64,000 bases of DNA from Chitinophagaceae bacterium. GTDB lineage: Bacteria > Bacteroidota > Bacteroidia > Chitinophagales > Chitinophagaceae. A program made the position numbers and the translations under genes. The notes beneath the pieces were generated by a model that did not search any database, was not told the DNA's origin, and was given only the letters and a program-made list of their open reading frames with translations. This document shows, piece after piece, positions 6,466 through 55,947 of this stretch (position 1 is the first letter of the stretch; each line of letters opens with the position of its first letter). The stretch lies in assembly GCA_947447825.1 (NCBI GenBank), contig CANFLL010000010.1, positions 1-64,000 of the forward strand, read 5' to 3'.

Positions 6466-6466
6466 A

Positions 6467-6540
6467 TAATTAGTTTATAATTTATAATTAAAAATTGAGA
6501 GTTGAGTTGAAAGTAGAGAGTCAAAAGTCGAAAGTCAATA
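6467..6540. repeat. Heptad-periodic tract H3a
   Basis: About ten consecutive 7-bp units, first TTATAAT type and then AAAGTCG/AAAGTCA type. The tract is roughly the reverse complement of tract H3b 70 bp away, so the pair forms a large imperfect inverted repeat in the gap between two minus-strand genes. Confidence 0.65.
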
Positions 6541-6610
6541 CCTAGAAATTTGAGTTCTTTATGAATTATGATTTAATCTCTTTTGAACTTAATAAAATTG
6601 AATAGTGAAT

Positions 6611-6735
6611 TTCAACTTTTGACTCTCAACTTTCTACTCTCTACTTTTGACTTTCGACTCTCAACTTTCGACTTTCGACTCTCTACTTTCAACTTTTGAC
6701 TTTTAACTCTCAACTTTTAACTCTCAACTCTTAAT
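6611..6735. repeat. Heptad-periodic tract H3b
   Basis: About 17 units of 7 bp following the pattern (A/G/T)ACT(T/C)T(T/C), for example AACTTTT, GACTCTC, AACTTTC, TACTCTC. It runs over the stop codon of the neighbouring minus-strand gene (6717-6719), so the last residues of that protein are encoded by the repeat. Confidence 0.7.
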
Positions 6736-8243: not shown

Positions 8244-8269
8244 AAATAGAGTTAATTAAAAGAGAGCTC

Positions 8270-8542
8270 TCTCTTACAAATGGATGGCTCTCTTTTACCT
8301 AATTATAGCTTTCTTTTACAAAAGGATGGCTTTCTTTTACCAAGTGATAGCACTCTTTTACAAAAGGATGGTTGTCTTTTACCTAATGATAGCTTTCTTT
8401 TACCAAAGGATGGCTGTCTTTTACAAAAGGATAGCACTCTTTTACCAAATGATAGCTTTCTTTTACCAAATGATAGCTTTCTTTTACCAAGTGATGGCTG
8501 TCTTTTACCAAATGATGGCTCTCTTTTGCTCAAAGACAGCTA
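8270..8542. repeat. 21-bp tandem array A1, 13 units
   Basis: Thirteen head-to-tail units of exactly 21 bp with the core TCTTTTAC(C/A)AAA followed by GATAGC or GATGGC. Three units contain a perfect inverted repeat CTTTT-AC-AAAAG with a 2-bp centre. The array fills the gap between the convergent acyltransferase and TonB-receptor genes. It keeps long frames open in several phases because 21 is a multiple of three; these are not taken as genes. Confidence 0.95.
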
Positions 8543-13832: not shown

Positions 13833-13985
13833 AATAATATTTATGCAAGAGTAGTCTTTATAGTGTTGTTTAGGATATTATTAATGGTGAGGGAGGATAA
13901 AAGTTTTTCCTGAACTATTATAAAACTTTTCGAAAGTTCTAAACTATTCTTCCCTATTGTTTTTATAATTTTTATTGGTTTCTGG

Positions 13986-14153
13986 AAAGTAAAGTCACGT
14001 CACCCGAAAGTAAAGTGATGTCACTCGAAAGTAAAGTGATGTCACTCGAAAGTAAAGTGACGTCACTCGAAAGTAAAGTGACGTCACTTTAAAGTAAAGT
14101 CACGCCACTCGAAAGTAAAGTGACATCACTCAAAAGTAAAGTGACGTCACTTA
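13986..14153. repeat. 21-bp tandem array A2, 8 units
   Basis: Eight units of exactly 21 bp: AAAGTAA followed by the palindromic core AGTGA-CG-TCACT (or AGTGA-TG-TCACT). Variation between units mostly preserves the dyad. The array lies between divergent genes, ending 205 bp before the phosphatase start. Confidence 0.97.
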
Positions 14154-22963: not shown

Positions 22964-23070
22964 TAATCATCATTTCATGGGGAGATGATACTATTAATAA
23001 GTCAAAGTTTTGCCTAAACAAGGCACAAAAGCATTTGTAATTTAAGAAACCAGTTCTTTTAATATTCATT

Positions 23071-23280
23071 CCTCACGTGTGAGCAAGGTTTCCTCACGTG
23101 TGAGCAAGGTTTCCTCACGTGTGCGGAAGCTTTCCTCACGTGTGCGGAAGCTTTCCTCACGTGTGCGGAAGGTTTCCTCACGTGTGCGGAAGGTTTCCTC
23201 ACGTGTGTGCAAAGTTCCCTCACGTGTGTGCAAGTATTCCTCACGTGTGAGCAAGTATTCCTCACGTGTGAGATAAGCTT
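23071..23280. repeat. 21-bp tandem array A3, 10 units
   Basis: Ten units of exactly 21 bp. Every unit starts CCTCACGTGTG; several have the full dyad CTCAC-GT-GTGAG, others the variant ending GTGCGGAAG. The tail half of the unit varies in blocks shared by neighbouring units, which suggests duplication of adjacent units. It ends 41 bp before the exbB start, inside what should be the promoter or leader of the TonB-system genes. Confidence 0.97.
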
Positions 23281-28274: not shown

Positions 28275-28540
28275 CAATGGTGAATGTATTAATTGAGTTT
28301 TATAGGGTTAAAATGACAGTTTTTGCCTAATTTAAAATCTATAATAGATTGAATAAAAAACTTTTTATTCATAATACTTTAAAAATTGATATTCAATGTG
28401 AAATGAGGTATTTTAATCTTCAATTTTTCAGAAGAACAATCGATTATATTTCCTATAAAATATTTTACAGCTACAATATTAATTACATTTCATTTCTACA
28501 ATTTTTAAGATACCTTTTCATAGTTAAAGGTGCTTTGAAT
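28275..28540. other. AT-rich intergenic DNA
   Basis: Between element M3 and array A4. A 70-codon frame at 28349-28561 runs into the array and has the Asn/Ile/Phe/Tyr-rich composition of chance frames in AT-rich DNA, so no gene is called here. Confidence 0.4.
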
Positions 28541-28735
28541 AACTTTCAAGTAGCACGATAGTATTATCGTGTGCCTTAAATAACTTTCAAGTGGCACGAT
28601 AGCGTAATCGTGTGTCTTGAATAACTTTCAGGTGGCACGATAGCGCTATCGTGTGTCTTAAATAACTTTCAAGAGGCACGATAGTACTATCGTGTGCCTT
28701 GAAAAACTTTCAGGTAGCACGATACCGCTACTAAT
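28541..28735. repeat. 41-bp tandem array A4, about 4.8 units
   Basis: Units of 41 bp: AACTTTCAAG, then a large dyad, then GTGCCTTAAAT. The dyads at 28636-28653 (CACGATAGCGCTATCGTG) and 28677-28694 (CACGATAGTACTATCGTG) are perfect 18-bp palindromes; the first two units have imperfect centres and the last unit decays. The preceding 13 bp (28528-28540) match the unit end. The period is near, but not equal to, twice 21. Confidence 0.95.
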
Positions 28736-28916
28736 TGTGTTATTTAGGTTTAAATGAATGTATTACCAAGAACAAATGGGTGAAATTGTTTTGAAAGAGG
28801 TCGGGATTTGTGAATGGGTTTGTAGTATTATTGCAGGGGGGAAATCAAATTAAACATTAACTATGAATTCTTTTAATGATTGCAGTTTAGAACACCAATA
28901 TAAAAATGCTAGAAAT

Positions 28917-31293: not shown

Positions 31294-32310
31294 ATGCACA
31301 GAAAAAAAGTACTTTGTTTCGGAGAATTATTATTAAGGATTTCCCCAGCAGCAACAGATAATGAGTTTTCTGAAAAACAACCAATGCTTCTCTACATGGG
31401 TGGTGCAGAAGCCAACGTTGCTACCGCACTTGCCGGATGGAATGTTCCTGTGAAATATTGTACGGTGCTGCCCGATAATTTCATGAGTAAACATGTGATT
31501 GATTATCTTGAATACAAAGGAATCTATACTTCCTCCATTATTCATGCTGGCAGCCGAATCGGGATTTACTTTTTGGAGCGCGGGGCTGACCTTAAAGGGC
31601 AGATGGTGTACGATAGAGATCATTCGGCATTCTCTGAACTGAAAACAGGTGTGATAGATTGGGATAAGGTTTTGAGAGATGTGTCATGGTTCGATTTTAC
31701 AGCTATCAGTCCTGCCATAAACCAAAACGTTGCTGACGTTTGCCTAGAAGCTGCAGAAGCAGCGGCAAGAAAGGGAATCACTGTTTCATTAGATCTTAAC
31801 TATCGTTCTCGTTTGTGGAAATATGGTAAGCAACCAATAGAGATAATGCCAAAAATTGCTGAACAATGTGACGTGATTATGGGCAATATCTGGAGCGCAA
31901 ATACTTTATTAGGTACATCCATTGATGAAAACATACATGAAAAGCAAAGTAAAGAGGCCTATATAAATCATTCAGAGTCTACTTCTAAAGAAATTATTGA
32001 ACGCTTTCCTAAGTGCAAAGTGGTGGCAAATACCTTCCGATTCGATAGTAATGCCAACAATTTATTGTACTATACTGGTTTATATACCGAAGGAAAACAT
32101 TATCAATCTGCCGAGTTTACTTGTCAGGGCGTAGTAGATAGAAGTGGTAGTGGAGATTGCTTTATGGCAGGATTAATTTATGGTTTATATAATCAAAATC
32201 CTCCGCAAGAAGTATTGAACTATGCTACTGCAGCCGCCTTTGGTAAACTACAAGAAATGGGTGACTCTACCGATCAAGATGTGTTTACAGTAAAGAAAAA
32301 TGCGAAGTAA
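31294..32310 (+). CDS. kdgK: 2-dehydro-3-deoxygluconokinase (PfkB family)
   Basis: 338 residues. Cytoplasmic enzyme that phosphorylates 2-keto-3-deoxygluconate with ATP in pectin, alginate or uronate breakdown. The N-terminal FGELLLRISP and YMGGAEANVATALAGW are typical for KDG kinases of Bacteroidota. The C-terminal PfkB signature is DRSGSGDCFMAG, with GSGD in place of GAGD as in this subgroup; the catalytic Asp is kept. The partner aldolase (kdgA) is not in the window. The gene stands alone between an 18-bp upstream dyad and hairpin element H5. Confidence 0.82.
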   Translation: MHRKKVLCFGELLLRISPAATDNEFSEKQPMLLYMGGAEANVATALAGWNVPVKYCTVLPDNFMSKHVIDYLEYKGIYTSSIIHAGSRIGIYFLERGADLKGQMVYDRDHSAFSELKTGVIDWDKVLRDVSWFDFTAISPAINQNVADVCLEAAEAAARKGITVSLDLNYRSRLWKYGKQPIEIMPKIAEQCDVIMGNIWSANTLLGTSIDENIHEKQSKEAYINHSESTSKEIIERFPKCKVVANTFRFDSNANNLLYYTGLYTEGKHYQSAEFTCQGVVDRSGSGDCFMAGLIYGLYNQNPPQEVLNYATAAAFGKLQEMGDSTDQDVFTVKKNAK

Positions 32311-32314
32311 ATAC

Positions 32315-32387
32315 TAGTTGTTAGTTATTAGTGGTTAGTTTTTAGGAAACTAATCTCTAACAGCTAACCACTAATAACTAACAACTA
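32315..32387. repeat. Heptad-periodic hairpin element H5
   Basis: Ten consecutive 7-bp units: four of the form nnnnTAG (TTGTTAG, TTATTAG, TGGTTAG, TTTTTAG), then six of the form nnnnCTA (ACCACTA, ATAACTA, ACAACTA). The two halves pair in a perfect 24-bp stem (32315-32338 with 32364-32387). It starts 5 bp after the kinase stop and ends 5 bp before the start of the vWA gene. Confidence 0.85.
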
Positions 32388-32392
32388 AATAG

Positions 32393-33067
32393 ATGGACGA
32401 ATACATTTCTTTTGAACAGATACCTTTTGGAAGTGACAGCTTTGCAGATAATCCGGAGCCGAGATGTCCTTGTGTATTACTACTAGATACCTCTGGATCG
32501 ATGGCAGGCAAATCATTGGATGAACTTAATGCAGGCATACAAACATTTAAGAAAGAATTGCTCGGTGATTCATTGGCAACAAAAAGAGTGGAGATTGCCC
32601 TGATAACCTTTGGCCCTGTACAATTGCAAGTAGAGTTTGAAACAGTAAATAACTTTCATCCTAAAGAACTAAACACCACTGGCGATACACCTCTTGGTGA
32701 AGCAATAGAATTAGGGATTGATTTGGTGAACCAAAGAAAGAAAGTTTATAAAGAAAATGGCATCGCCTATTATAAACCATGGATCATTCTGATTACTGAT
32801 GGCGAACCTACAGACGCTTACTTTCATGCTGCATCCTTAGTGAAAGAAGGCGAGGCAAATAAATCTTTTGCATTTTTTGCTATTGGCGTTGAAGGAGCAA
32901 ACATGCAAATCTTGAAACAGATTTCTGTACGTCAGCCATTAAAACTAAAAGGATTAATGTTTAGGGAGTTCTTTTTGTGGCTCTCCGCATCTATGAAAAT
33001 GGTTTCGGTTAAAGATCCTAGTAGTAGCATCAGTTTGTTGCCCCCAACTGGCTGGAGCGAACTGTAA
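32393..33067 (+). CDS. TerY-like von Willebrand factor A domain protein
   Basis: 224 residues, a single vWA domain. The metal-ion-dependent adhesion site is complete: DTSGS at residues 32-36, the Thr in NTTGDTPLGEA, and the Asp in LITDGEPTD. This is the TerY type found in tellurite-resistance-like stress systems, in which a vWA protein works with a PP2C phosphatase and often a Ser/Thr kinase. The PP2C gene follows 163 bp downstream. The exact signal is unknown. Confidence 0.85.
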   Translation: MDEYISFEQIPFGSDSFADNPEPRCPCVLLLDTSGSMAGKSLDELNAGIQTFKKELLGDSLATKRVEIALITFGPVQLQVEFETVNNFHPKELNTTGDTPLGEAIELGIDLVNQRKKVYKENGIAYYKPWIILITDGEPTDAYFHAASLVKEGEANKSFAFFAIGVEGANMQILKQISVRQPLKLKGLMFREFFLWLSASMKMVSVKDPSSSISLLPPTGWSEL

Positions 33068-33230
33068 ATTATGATTTCTTAATAAAGAAGAATGAACCAA
33101 TAATTTCCACATATTTGCGCCCAAATGCTCACTTCTTTTTCTAAAATATTTAAGATTCCCAGTGTGGTTCTGTATGCGAAACCTACTTACTCGGTGTTGA
33201 TTATTTATACTATCCAAATGACTTAAAATT

Positions 33231-33992
33231 ATGAATTGGAAAACCATTGGCAAAAGTGTTGTAGGTACTTCTCATGTTAATGCGGAAAAGCCTTGCGAGG
33301 ATGCTTTGCAATATAAAATTGTGACAGACAACAACGGAAATGAGGTACTGATAGCAATTGCTAGTGACGGTGCTGGAAGTGCAAAGTTTGCGAAAGAATC
33401 TGCCATCGTTTCTTCTCATTTTGGTATTGATATATTGGCACATTTTATTAATGAAGGAACGAAGATTAATGAAGCAACTATTGTATTTATGGTTGAAACT
33501 ATATTGGATGAGTTACAAAAAGAATCAACTTCAACTGGCGAACCTCTTAACGAATATTCTTGCACATTATTAGGCTGCGTGCTATTTAATAGTTCGTCCA
33601 TATTCTTTCAGATTGGTGATGGTGCCATTGTTAGAGATGATGGTAATGATGGGTATGCAACAATTTGGTGGCCGCAGAATGGGGAATATGCCAATACAAC
33701 TTGCTTTATTACGGATCAAAATGCATTGTCTAATCTTCGGATTATATTGATGAATGAACCAATAAAAGAAGTGGCTTTAATAACAGATGGCTTACAAATG
33801 CTTGCTCTAAACAATGAAACAAGCACCGTACATCAGCCTTTTTTTAATGGTTTATTTAAATGGTTACGCTTTGCTAACAAGGAAGAAGAGATTGAGATAT
33901 TGGATAATAAATTGAATGAATACCTACTTAGTGAGACTATTAATAACAGAACAGATGACGACAAAACACTATTCTTGGCTACTAGACATTAA
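33231..33992 (+). CDS. PP2C-family protein phosphatase
   Basis: 253 residues. The manganese-binding aspartates of the PP2C fold are visible in IASDGAGSAKFAKESA, in QIGDGAIV and ALITDGLQ, and in NRTDDDKTLFLAT near the C-terminus. It dephosphorylates Ser/Thr residues in the cytoplasm. With the TerY-like gene before it, it forms the core of a TerY-phosphatase module; the kinase often encoded third is absent, since the next gene is rarA on the opposite strand. Confidence 0.85.
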   Translation: MNWKTIGKSVVGTSHVNAEKPCEDALQYKIVTDNNGNEVLIAIASDGAGSAKFAKESAIVSSHFGIDILAHFINEGTKINEATIVFMVETILDELQKESTSTGEPLNEYSCTLLGCVLFNSSSIFFQIGDGAIVRDDGNDGYATIWWPQNGEYANTTCFITDQNALSNLRIILMNEPIKEVALITDGLQMLALNNETSTVHQPFFNGLFKWLRFANKEEEIEILDNKLNEYLLSETINNRTDDDKTLFLATRH

Positions 33993-35891: not shown

Positions 35892-36095
35892 TGTTCAGGT
35901 GAGTCAGTCCACGACTCAGGTGAATCTTTGTCTGACTCAGGTGAGTCTTCGACTTACTCAACTGAGTCTTTGTCTGACTCAAGTGAGTCGTCGACTCACT
36001 CAGATGAATCTTTTTATGACTCAGGTGAGTCGTGGACTGACTCAGGTGAATCTTTGACTGACTCAAGTGAATATAAGCGTGATTCAGTTGAATAA
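35892..36095. repeat. 21-bp tandem array A5, about 9.7 units
   Basis: Units of exactly 21 bp with the dyad GACTCA-GG-TGAGTC (variants GACTCA-AG-TGAGTC, GACTCA-GG-TGAATC), followed by a variable 7-bp tail. A frame from 35844 to 36095 would encode repeats of DSGESLS type and stops at the array end, but this is probably a by-product of the period. It lies between divergent rarA and hddA, 250 bp before the latter. Confidence 0.96.
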
Positions 36096-44316: not shown

Positions 44317-45018
44317 ATGAACATAATAATTACTGGTGCATCTAAAGGATTAGGAAGGTCAATGGCATTGCAGTTTGCTGAAGATAAAAACAATACATTG
44401 TTGGTATGTGCTAGGGGAGAAGTGGGCTTATATAATTTGGTGCAAGAGATTCAAACCTATTTTCCGGATGTAAACATTAAGGCAATGCCTATTGATATGG
44501 CTAAAAAGGAAGAAGTGATTGCATTTGCTGAATGGTGTCTTTCTTTTGGTAAGCCTGATATATTGATAAATAACGCAGGGACTTTTCTGCCAGGAACAAT
44601 TGCAGATGAAGATGAGGGGATTTTAGAAACAATGATGACCACGAATCTTTATAGTGCTTATTACTTAACGAGGGCTTTATTGCCTTCTATGATTGAGCAC
44701 AAAAGTGGACATATTTTTAATATATGTTCGATAGCATCTCTTACTGCGTACAATAATGGAGGAAGTTACAGCATCAGTAAATTTGCTTTACATGGGTTTA
44801 GTAAGAACTTGCGAGAGGAACTTAAACCAAAAGGAATAAAAGTGACTGGTGTGTTTCCTGGTGCTGCTTACACTGACAGTTGGAGTGGTAGTGGCATTGA
44901 CCCAAATAGAATTATGGAGGCTGATGATGTTGCTAAGATGGTTTATGCTGCTACTAAATTGTCTGCACAAGGTGTAGTAGAAGATATTATTTTGCGGCCA
45001 CAATTGGGAGACCTTTAA
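44317..45018 (+). CDS. Short-chain dehydrogenase/reductase
   Basis: 233 residues, a classical SDR. The NAD(P) loop is TGASKGLG near the N-terminus; NNAG follows strand 4, the catalytic Ser is in ICSIASLTAYN and the Tyr-Lys pair in YSISK. It oxidises or reduces an alcohol/ketone with NAD(P); the substrate is not evident. The gene lies between heptad tracts H7 and H8, with the stop codon touching H8. Confidence 0.87.
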   Translation: MNIIITGASKGLGRSMALQFAEDKNNTLLVCARGEVGLYNLVQEIQTYFPDVNIKAMPIDMAKKEEVIAFAEWCLSFGKPDILINNAGTFLPGTIADEDEGILETMMTTNLYSAYYLTRALLPSMIEHKSGHIFNICSIASLTAYNNGGSYSISKFALHGFSKNLREELKPKGIKVTGVFPGAAYTDSWSGSGIDPNRIMEADDVAKMVYAATKLSAQGVVEDIILRPQLGDL

Positions 45019-45098
45019 AAGTTGAAAGTTGAAAGTTGAAAATTGAAAGTTAAAAGTTAAAAGTTAAAAGTTAAAAGTTAAGAGTTGAAAGTTTAGAA
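45018..45098. repeat. Heptad-periodic tract H8
   Basis: Eleven 7-bp units AGTTGAA/AGTTAAA in a row, starting at the stop codon of the SDR gene. It is the complement-strand version of the AACTTTT family (H3b, H7). Confidence 0.75.
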
Positions 45099-45917: not shown

Positions 45918-45973
45918 GTTGTACGTTTTGAGTTATACGTTATAAGTTATACGTTTTAAGTTATACGTTGTAA
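45918..45973. repeat. 14-bp (2 x 7) tandem element H9
   Basis: Four units of 14 bp: GTTGTACGTTTTGA, GTTATACGTTATAA, GTTATACGTTTTAA, GTTATACGTTGTAA. It starts 29 bp after the yjjG stop. Related to H6. Confidence 0.8.
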
Positions 45974-46085
45974 AGAGACTGCTTGAAGAGAAAATTGTTC
46001 ATTTAACGACTAGGTTACTAAAAGGAGCAAAGAAGAGTTTAAAAGAACGTTATTAAGCGATTATTCTAAGTATTTAAGTCCCCTT

Positions 46086-46264
46086 TTTTACATGTTTAGG
46101 TCGCTATTTTACACGTTTAGGTCGCTATTTTACACGTTTAGGTCGCTATTTTACACGTTTAATTCGCTTTTTTACATGTTTAATTCACTTTTTTACATGT
46201 TTAAGTCGCTATTTTACACGTTTAATTCACTTTTTTACACGTTTAAGTCGTTGTTTTACACTTA
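46086..46264. repeat. 21-bp tandem array A6, about 8.5 units
   Basis: Units of exactly 21 bp with TTTTACACGTTTA followed by GGTCGCTA, AGTCGCTA or ATTCACTT. Only a short dyad is seen (ACATGT or AC-AC-GT), so this array is the least palindromic. It ends 148 bp before the prfB start. Confidence 0.96.
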
Positions 46265-53191: not shown

Positions 53192-54184
53192 TCTTTAAAT
53201 ATTAGATTATAAAATAACCCTACCTAAAAACAGCAGATACTCTCCTGACTAATTTAATAGTGCATAGTACGGAACGGAGAACTGTTTTGTGGGGCTTTAA
53301 ACCAATTAAAGTGAAAGTAAACATTCGTTTTTAATCATAAAAACAAAACATGCTATATGCAAGTAATTTATAAAAGATTGCAATATTTGTTTCAATATGG
53401 CAGTTCAACCTAATAAGTAGATGGTACTTATTAAAAAGTAGACCTCTGTCACATAAAAGTTTTACGATTTATAAATTCTGAAGCGGATGTAGAGACTGGT
53501 TTCATGGGGCTTAAAAGTAAATAACTTTAATGCTGTCGTTTCATTGTTCTGTAAGATGCTCAATAAATTGCTGGTTTATAGTTGATTTTTAAGTCTAATT
53601 AAACTAAACACCACCACCTTTTCTCAACCTGTTATACTGAACCTTATCTAGTCTTGTATAAATGTTGTTTTATCCTGTATGAATGTTGTTTTATCTTGTA
53701 TGATTGTTGTTTTATTAACTCTCCGCCAAACGTAGCTAGAAAAACAGTCTAAATGTTGATGTTTTCACAAGTTTTTTTAATTTGTGGTCTATGATTTCTT
53801 TAGGGATTCTGTAGCAAATCAATCAGCATTGCTAGTTTGATTCTCATTTATTTGAAATTTATTTCAGGTATAGTCTTGTTAAAATGATAGAGTTTTTCCA
53901 GAGTTGCATCTATTCCATCTAATCTTTTTCATCAGCTCAATCGTGTTGATAGCCTGTTGTGCAGTATATATCAGTTACACAAAAAATTGCATAAACATTT
54001 TCAAGATGTTATTCTTGACAATTGAGATCTGGCTTATTCCAATTTAAAGAGGCATGAATTTAGGGTTAGAATTCAATAAACGTATCAATGTAGCTGAAAT
54101 AACTTTAGCATAAAGAGGTTATTACAGTTACACTAATACTGGTATCACCTTAACTTAATAATTCCAATTTGATGTATCCTCTCA
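53192..54184. other. One-kilobase gene-free region
   Basis: AT-rich with stops in all frames. It contains the short 21-bp array A8 (53641-53720). I see no gene, tRNA or clear promoter; a small RNA cannot be excluded. Confidence 0.45.
53641..53720. repeat. Short 21-bp tandem array A8, about 3.5 units
   Basis: Units of exactly 21 bp around ATGTTGTTTTAT followed by CTTGTATGA. Two units are nearly identical (53662-53682 and 53683-53703); a partial follows and a diverged unit precedes. No strong dyad. It may be a young or a dying array of the same class. Confidence 0.8.
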
Positions 54185-55615: not shown

Positions 55616-55686
55616 GCAGAATGGGGTTCTGTTTAGTAAATAGAATTTAGTCCAAAAACCTGTCAACCTTTATTAGGAGGGGTCAG

Positions 55687-55947
55687 TTTTGCGGCTAAAC
55701 ATAAACGTTTTGCGGCTAAACGTACACGTTTTGCGACTAAACGTACACGTTATGCGGCTAAACGTACACGTTATGCGGCTAAACGTACACGTTATGCGGC
55801 TAAACGTAAACGTTATGCGACTAAACGTACACGTTTTGCGACTAAACGTACACGTTTTGCGACTAAACGTACACGTTTTGCGACTAAACGTAAACGTTAT
55901 GCGGCTAAACGTACACGTTATGCGCCTAAACGTAAACGTTATGCGCC
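55687..55947. repeat. 21-bp tandem array A7, about 12.4 units
   Basis: Twelve full units of exactly 21 bp and a partial one: TTTTGCG or TTATGCG, (G/A)CTA, then the dyad AACGT-AC-ACGTT that spans the unit boundary. Units occur in blocks of the same variant. The array ends one base before the stop codon of the regulator gene and starts about 100 bp upstream of the nuclease start. Confidence 0.97.

Follow-up and report, generated by a model that had tools for sequence, protein, structure and literature searches.

A stop-proximal TAG/CTA heptad hairpin between two cistrons of a Chitinophagaceae genome as one copy of a dispersed, genus-wide class

The analyzed window, a stretch of 64,000 nucleotides from a Chitinophagaceae bacterium, carried between two plus-strand genes a hairpin at positions 32315-32387. 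It consisted of ten heptads in a single 7-nt register, five headed by TAG and then five headed by CTA, with a terminal CTA (TAGTTGT, TAGTTAT, TAGTGGT, TAGTTTT, TAGGAAA, CTAATCT, CTAACAG, CTAACCA, CTAATAA, CTAACAA and CTA). The components of the locus were as follows:

31294-32310, plus strand: upstream cistron, a PfkB-family carbohydrate kinase (family match), whose stop lies 4 bp before the hairpin.
32315-32345, plus strand: 5' arm, the first four heptads and the TAG of the fifth, free of C.
32346-32349, plus strand: GAAA joining the TAG chain to the CTA chain; the adjoining heptads pair in part only.
32350-32387, plus strand: 3' arm (CTA, then ATCTCTA, ACAGCTA, ACCACTA, ATAACTA and ACAACTA), free of G; its terminal 24 bases form the stem with 32315-32338.
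32393-33067, plus strand: downstream cistron, a VWA-domain protein (family match), whose ATG lies 5 bp after the hairpin.

Among named organisms, the kinase had its closest relatives in Chitinophagaceae assemblies. The outer 24 bp of the stem (32315-32338 with 32364-32387) showed no mismatch, and the minimum free energy of the RNA was -41.8 kcal/mol for the plus strand (z -11.1) and -39.8 kcal/mol for the minus strand (z -8.9), with none of 200 shuffled sequences as stable in either case. Sequence and folding thus confirmed the ten mirrored heptads and the 24-bp perfect stem described in the original prediction, while its flanks of 5 bp each held before the VWA start codon and amounted to 4 bp after the kinase stop. 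Its naming of the neighbours stood for the vWA gene and for a kinase of the PfkB family, "KDG kinase" being finer than the family match supports. No match was obtained when the window was searched against Rfam at the gathering score. The VWA gene was separated from the next gene by 163 bp (33067-33231), and the two overlapped by 4 nt in the sister genome (G004); the C-terminal residues of the VWA protein were identical in both.

The 7-nt period was not restricted to the hairpin. When the window was scanned at lags of 4 to 63, arrays were detected at 7, 14, 21, 28, 35, 42, 49, 56 and 63, and otherwise only at 41 and 58; the same scan of one shuffled window gave no arrays. Contigs of G004 and G007 likewise showed mostly multiples of 7 (exceptions 9, 41, 43 and 51), and the 56 kb around the kinase gene at eight Segetibacter, Pedobacter and Mucilaginibacter loci gave one lag-14 and one lag-11 segment. 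Three further heptad arrays of the window were the following:

6466-6716, no strand assigned: heptad spacer between two minus-strand ORFs, with G-bearing heptads on the left and C-bearing TTTCAAC/TTTCGAC on the right; same polarity, other family.
45010-45098, plus strand: one-way TTRAAAG array flanked by plus-strand ORFs on both sides, with its initial bases overlapping the end of the upstream ORF.
45931-45969, plus strand: short GTTATAC-type heptad array.

Tandem arrays with units of 21 bp (and 42 bp), in up to about 12 copies, were present at 8258-8527, 13985-14151, 23069-23272, 35895-36072, 46073-46261, 53655-53715 and 55686-55945; these also lie on a 7n scale, and some of their units hold short palindromes. 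Across the sequences analyzed, 168 arrays reduced to 44 consensus units. Stop codons in all three frames were considered as a selected feature, and stop codons were present in 150 of the 168 arrays against 113 expected by letter permutation; since this excess nearly disappeared over the 44 distinct units (34 vs. 30.5 expected, hardly above chance), such selection is not claimed.

The window hairpin is one copy of a dispersed, genus-wide class of intercistronic heptad hairpins. With the window spacer as query, at least 108 segments of its own genome (G000; 4.65 Mb, 187 contigs) matched, a given place usually being hit on both strands; of 134 candidates at first look, 40 were scored. The 24-base arm, with up to two mismatches, matched 117 times in G000 and 98 times in G004, overlapping registers counted, and was present in 10 of 13 genomes of the genus, while its backward control gave no match in any of the 13. 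A relaxed pattern of four TTAGT at 7-base spacing occurred in 26 of 195 family genomes, with 200 matches in G000, 50 in G007, 31 in G151, 23 in G079 and fewer elsewhere, the variable letters often differing; its backward control was non-zero (8 in G000, 16 in G134, few elsewhere). Among the copies in G000, locus L080 carried the identical 24-bp stem with another loop, so that the proposed look for identical hairpins elsewhere in the genome had a positive outcome. Heptad arrays were also located at or near contig ends (L097, L098, L102 and L110); L097 and L098 represent a single sequence met at two contig ends, which makes it probable that the repeats break the assembly.

In the site survey, the window and 38 stretches chosen from the spacer search yielded 41 distinct sites in G000 (42 listed, L097 and L098 being counted once and neither entering the polarity count), and stretches of G004 chosen because they held the pattern yielded 63. 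The site rule gave none for one of the 39 own-genome sources (L112) and for three of 70 G004 loci (L137, L167 and L168). None of the 104 distinct TAG-type sites lay inside a called ORF, gene calls being ORF picks with uncertain start codons. Hairpins accounted for 59 sites (58 under another removal of duplicates), and all ran from TAG to CTA, none from CTA to TAG. The usual unit was TAGT[T/G][G/A]T, with a fixed TAG register and little variation at other positions; the number of arm units differed between copies, and no more than 6 of 25 hairpins had an uninterrupted helix of at least 20 bp. Hairpin sides towards a stop codon were tightly placed (61 of 66 within 15 nt), the first TAG being the stop codon itself in 20 of the 66 (value -3), while sides facing a start codon were looser (36 of 49 within 15 nt). 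The other 45 distinct sites were one-way arrays, 7 of them without a called neighbour; in 33 of the 38 judged, the TAG strand pointed outward from the nearer gene, and 29 of these 33 stood beside a stop. As for gap type, 42 of 56 hairpins occupied co-directional gaps, against 171 of 239 spacers, so that an enrichment that had looked strong early on was gone against the spacer baseline; 3 of 56 hairpins lay in divergent gaps (26 of 239 spacers), and convergent gaps held 8 of 31 hairpins with two called neighbours in G004 and 3 of 25 in G000.

The orthologous gap of the sister, whose comparison had been proposed as a check, contained the hairpin, identical in 69 of 73 columns. The G004 copy (L024) formed an unbroken 30-bp stem through its fourth heptad and differed from the window copy at the foot base (C instead of T), at a single loop position and, within that heptad, at one base per arm; the fourth heptad paired in L024 is unpaired in the window copy. 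These differences would fit a window copy derived by partial decay from a longer perfect palindrome, the two genomes giving no order of age. Of the own-genome hairpins, twelve had an alignable orthologous gap in the G004 stretches, and eleven were hairpins there too; the exception, L088:1394-1540, had no TAG array in its G004 gap and does not enter the pooled identities. The eleven agreed in 770 of 872 columns (88%), in a set biased toward conservation and undercounting lost hairpins because the G004 stretches were picked by pattern, whereas fourfold sites of the genes flanking 13 compared sites were identical in 1256 of 2283 cases (55%). Conservation was highest at L084 (78/78, where the 80 bp upstream were also identical and a recombined tract is possible), L089 (67/68), L087 (76/78), L107 (106/111) and the window copy (69/73), and low at L082 (52/70) and L105 (59/97). 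Loops were retained as well (133 of 158 positions, six of the eleven at 94-100%). Six one-way arrays shared 236 of 355 columns (66%; L106 among them 29/31), and the median identity of nine other spacers was 0.49.

Of the base pairs in the eleven orthologous hairpins, 320 were unchanged, 4 had changed on both sides and 10 on one side with pairing kept, 21 were broken and 21 gapped, counts which are compatible with maintenance of the stem without proving it, covariation being thin. At L080/L138, one pair had changed on both arms. Arms from the same site paired better with each other than arms swapped between sites, the observed value being reached by 28 of 1000 shuffles in G000 and 2 of 1000 in G004. 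Length differences in 17 orthologous heptad spacers were non-zero in 12, of which 5 were multiples of 7 (1.7 expected) and 7 were not; in this comparison L089, a hairpin in the site survey, was classed as one-way and L100 as a hairpin, the pools following the alignment classes. One-way arrays differed in length between the sisters. At L078, matches in G004 were confined to the repeat, with none in the flanking genes, and matches above 250 bp between the window and one G004 contig were restricted to about 28.5-34.0 kb. A 41-bp tandem repeat stretch at 28506-28845, found at a single place in its own genome, was 95% identical to a stretch near the orthologous kinase gene in G004, even though fourfold sites of the genes compared are about 55% identical.

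Five gaps were followed into other species of the genus, namely L084, L089, L107 and L087 (picked as well conserved) and the window gap. Hairpins of other heptad families often occupied them, TTATGAG/CTCATAA in G003 and G006 and TAATGAT/TAGTGAT in G002, G010 and G001; the window gap of G002 held ATTATGA-like heptads, G012 had one-way TTCACCT heptads at a compared gap, and some species had no heptads. By a lag-7 shuffle test (p < 0.01) outside G000 and G004, 18 of 36 focal spacers were heptadic, while the controls gave 8 of 62 (Fisher p 1e-4); the upstream gene was not shown to be the same one in all species, and it is another in G011 and G008 at L084. At least two of the 18 heptadic focal spacers were TAG-type (G003 at L084 and L087). 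At L089, TTATGAG in G000 stood where G004 had TTATTAG, showing that families can be one point change apart. Near the apex at L087, GTTTAATAAA was common to G000, G004, G003, G010 and G001 while the arms were different, which hints at replacement of the arms in place, though GTTTAATAAA resembles a heptad in G010. In the gap upstream of an FGGY kinase gene in G005 (L208), another inverted repeat, CCCCTAAAGGGG ... CCCTTTAGGGG, was present instead of heptads. Retention of the exact sequence in distant relatives, which had been named as the sign of an ordinary regulatory RNA, was not observed; in other species the gap was often refilled by other heptads.

Several known systems share part of these features. 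The GGGAATC and GGGGA(C/T)T heptamers of Xanthomonas and Nostoc, as described in the available part of PMC4692102, also have an outward G strand, pair as inverted repeats and are scarce between divergent genes, yet they form G-quadruplexes, while TAG-type units are AT-rich and without GGG; their average distance to the 5' ORF is 28 nt, compared to 61 of 66 sides within 15 nt of a stop here. Unlike in those heptamers, several loops are conserved here and orthologous gaps are filled by different heptad families. The TAACTGA heptamers, which form direct repeats in Beggiatoaceae, in Cyanobacteria and in five Bacteroidetes, likewise lie between genes close to their boundaries and contain stop codons, and their indels between two Cyanothece strains are mostly of 7 nt (accessible sections of PMC4679880). 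According to the same sections, the main genome holds 169 direct-repeat sets and one indirect repeat, for which no RNA structure is predicted, most of them directly upstream of start codons, whereas the present arrays are largely hairpins and mostly follow stops. In the P6b element of the Nostoc tRNA-Leu (UAA) intron, degenerate heptanucleotide repeats pair into one hairpin whose length is set by repeat number (PMC3488679, in the portion available); that is one site inside an intron, compared to dozens between genes here, but it demonstrates that stems can be made of heptads. REPs of E. coli and other bacteria are also palindromes scattered between genes, some of them no more than 15 nt from stops (446 of 4,072 E. 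coli candidates), with ribosome-stalling or mRNA effects proposed, and for those less than 16 nt from a stop, reduced translation and stalled ribosomes were reported (PMC12306157; for the former points also PMC3733652, both as far as their available text goes). REPs, however, measure 20-40 bp with 5-13 bp stems and a GTAG/CGTC tag, the GTAG types associating with transposase genes (same portions of PMC12306157 and PMC3733652); by eye, no separate unpaired GTAG/CGTC tag exists here, TAG recurring every 7 nt within the stem. Among the results listed by searches of open-access literature, no paper dealt with heptad hairpins in Chitinophagaceae; heptamer arrays are known in five other Bacteroidetes (PMC4679880).

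The reading we prefer, with a probability of about 0.5, is that arrays grow by slippage from a stop codon, acquire a second arm by a template-switch fold-back, and are in part retained as REP-like RNA hairpins. Slippage, which fits the 7-nt period, would multiply a degenerate 7-bp unit (TAGT[T/G][G/A]T, on the C-less strand) into a primary array that extends outward from the stop; a fold-back template switch of that strand would then add the complementary CTA arm, and later switches could re-match the arms. On this proposal the TAG to CTA order would be invariant because the fold-back copies the C-less strand. Many copies would have stayed one-way arrays, those behind stops representing the precursor state. 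With DNA parameters, the C-less strand gave the more stable fold of the two in all 12 one-way arrays folded (11 own TAG-type and one TTRAAAG); with RNA parameters such arrays hardly fold on either strand, so fold-back from the C-less strand is only weakly supported. Template switching has been modelled as able to create, maintain and repair RNA hairpins (PMC8794818, available text), and the unbroken 30-bp stem of L024, the arm matching within sites and the double change at L080/L138 favour the template switch of the original prediction, which is partly supported. Against a local accident stands the same arm at dozens of loci in one polarity near stops; nor would pure accident predict the 69 of 73 columns kept in the sister and the refilling of the gap by other heptads. 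Slippage with template switching is considered the probable origin. A subset including the window copy looks constrained, most simply through a stable stem in the transcript at most 15 nt from the stop, which may act on terminating ribosomes or insulate the two cistrons, as reported for E. coli REPs near stops. Cutting of the stem by RNase III is a further possibility. A role at the level of the ribosome or RNA is put forward tentatively.

A mutational by-product, in which slippage and template switching build functionless arrays wherever coding constraint is absent and behind stops since they are harmless there, is a serious if somewhat doubtful alternative. It agrees with the absence of sites from called ORFs, the varying length of one-way arrays between sisters and the chance level of stop codons in consensus units, and heptamers have been described as more frequent than any other long simple repeat in the majority of bacterial genomes, polymerase contact size being a proposed reason (PMC4679880 and PMC4692102, available sections). 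The by-product reading has difficulty with eleven orthologous hairpins, loops included, far above fourfold-site identity, and with the reuse of the same gaps by other heptads. That same reuse would be intolerable to a strictly sequence-specific DNA- or RNA-binding protein reading the 7-nt repeat, an explanation judged improbable despite the TAG register, the slight variation elsewhere and its having been suggested for the Beggiatoaceae TAACTGA repeats (PMC4679880, in the part available). Movement as a REP-like palindrome by a RAYT/Y1 transposase would suit dispersed, high-copy palindromes near gene ends, and five Y1_Tnp matches exist in the genome, four above the cut-off, but the five loci yielded neither a TAG chain nor a lag-7 array (at one of them, a run of four CTA units lies about 630 bp from the match), arm number varies and other species fill the same gaps with other heptads, so this is very unlikely. 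An intrinsic terminator or attenuator is equally implausible, the stable stems just past stops and the hairpins in convergent gaps notwithstanding, with most copies in co-directional gaps and, by inspection of the window copy alone, no run of four or more T directly after the stem on either strand.

Returning to slippage, fold-back and partial retention, a bolder and rather unlikely extension is that the gap inherits a shape, a 7-nt-periodic hairpin from the stop with a C-less 5' arm and a G-less 3' arm, while its sequence is rewritten, TAG, TGA and TAATGAT heptads interchanging by point change, slippage and re-copying of arms. With dozens of copies per genome in several species, these hairpins offer a natural system for testing the ability of slippage and template switching to build long stems and to preserve them, and they bear on whether stems behind stops affect the ribosome beyond E. 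coli REPs. Since the units described here contain no GGG, outward polarity cannot in general be due to quadruplexes, and its sharing with the quadruplex-forming Xanthomonas heptamers suggests that this orientation is not about quadruplexes. If shape inheritance were true, the gap would be a structure-selected, nearly sequence-free cistron insulator upheld by the mutation process itself.
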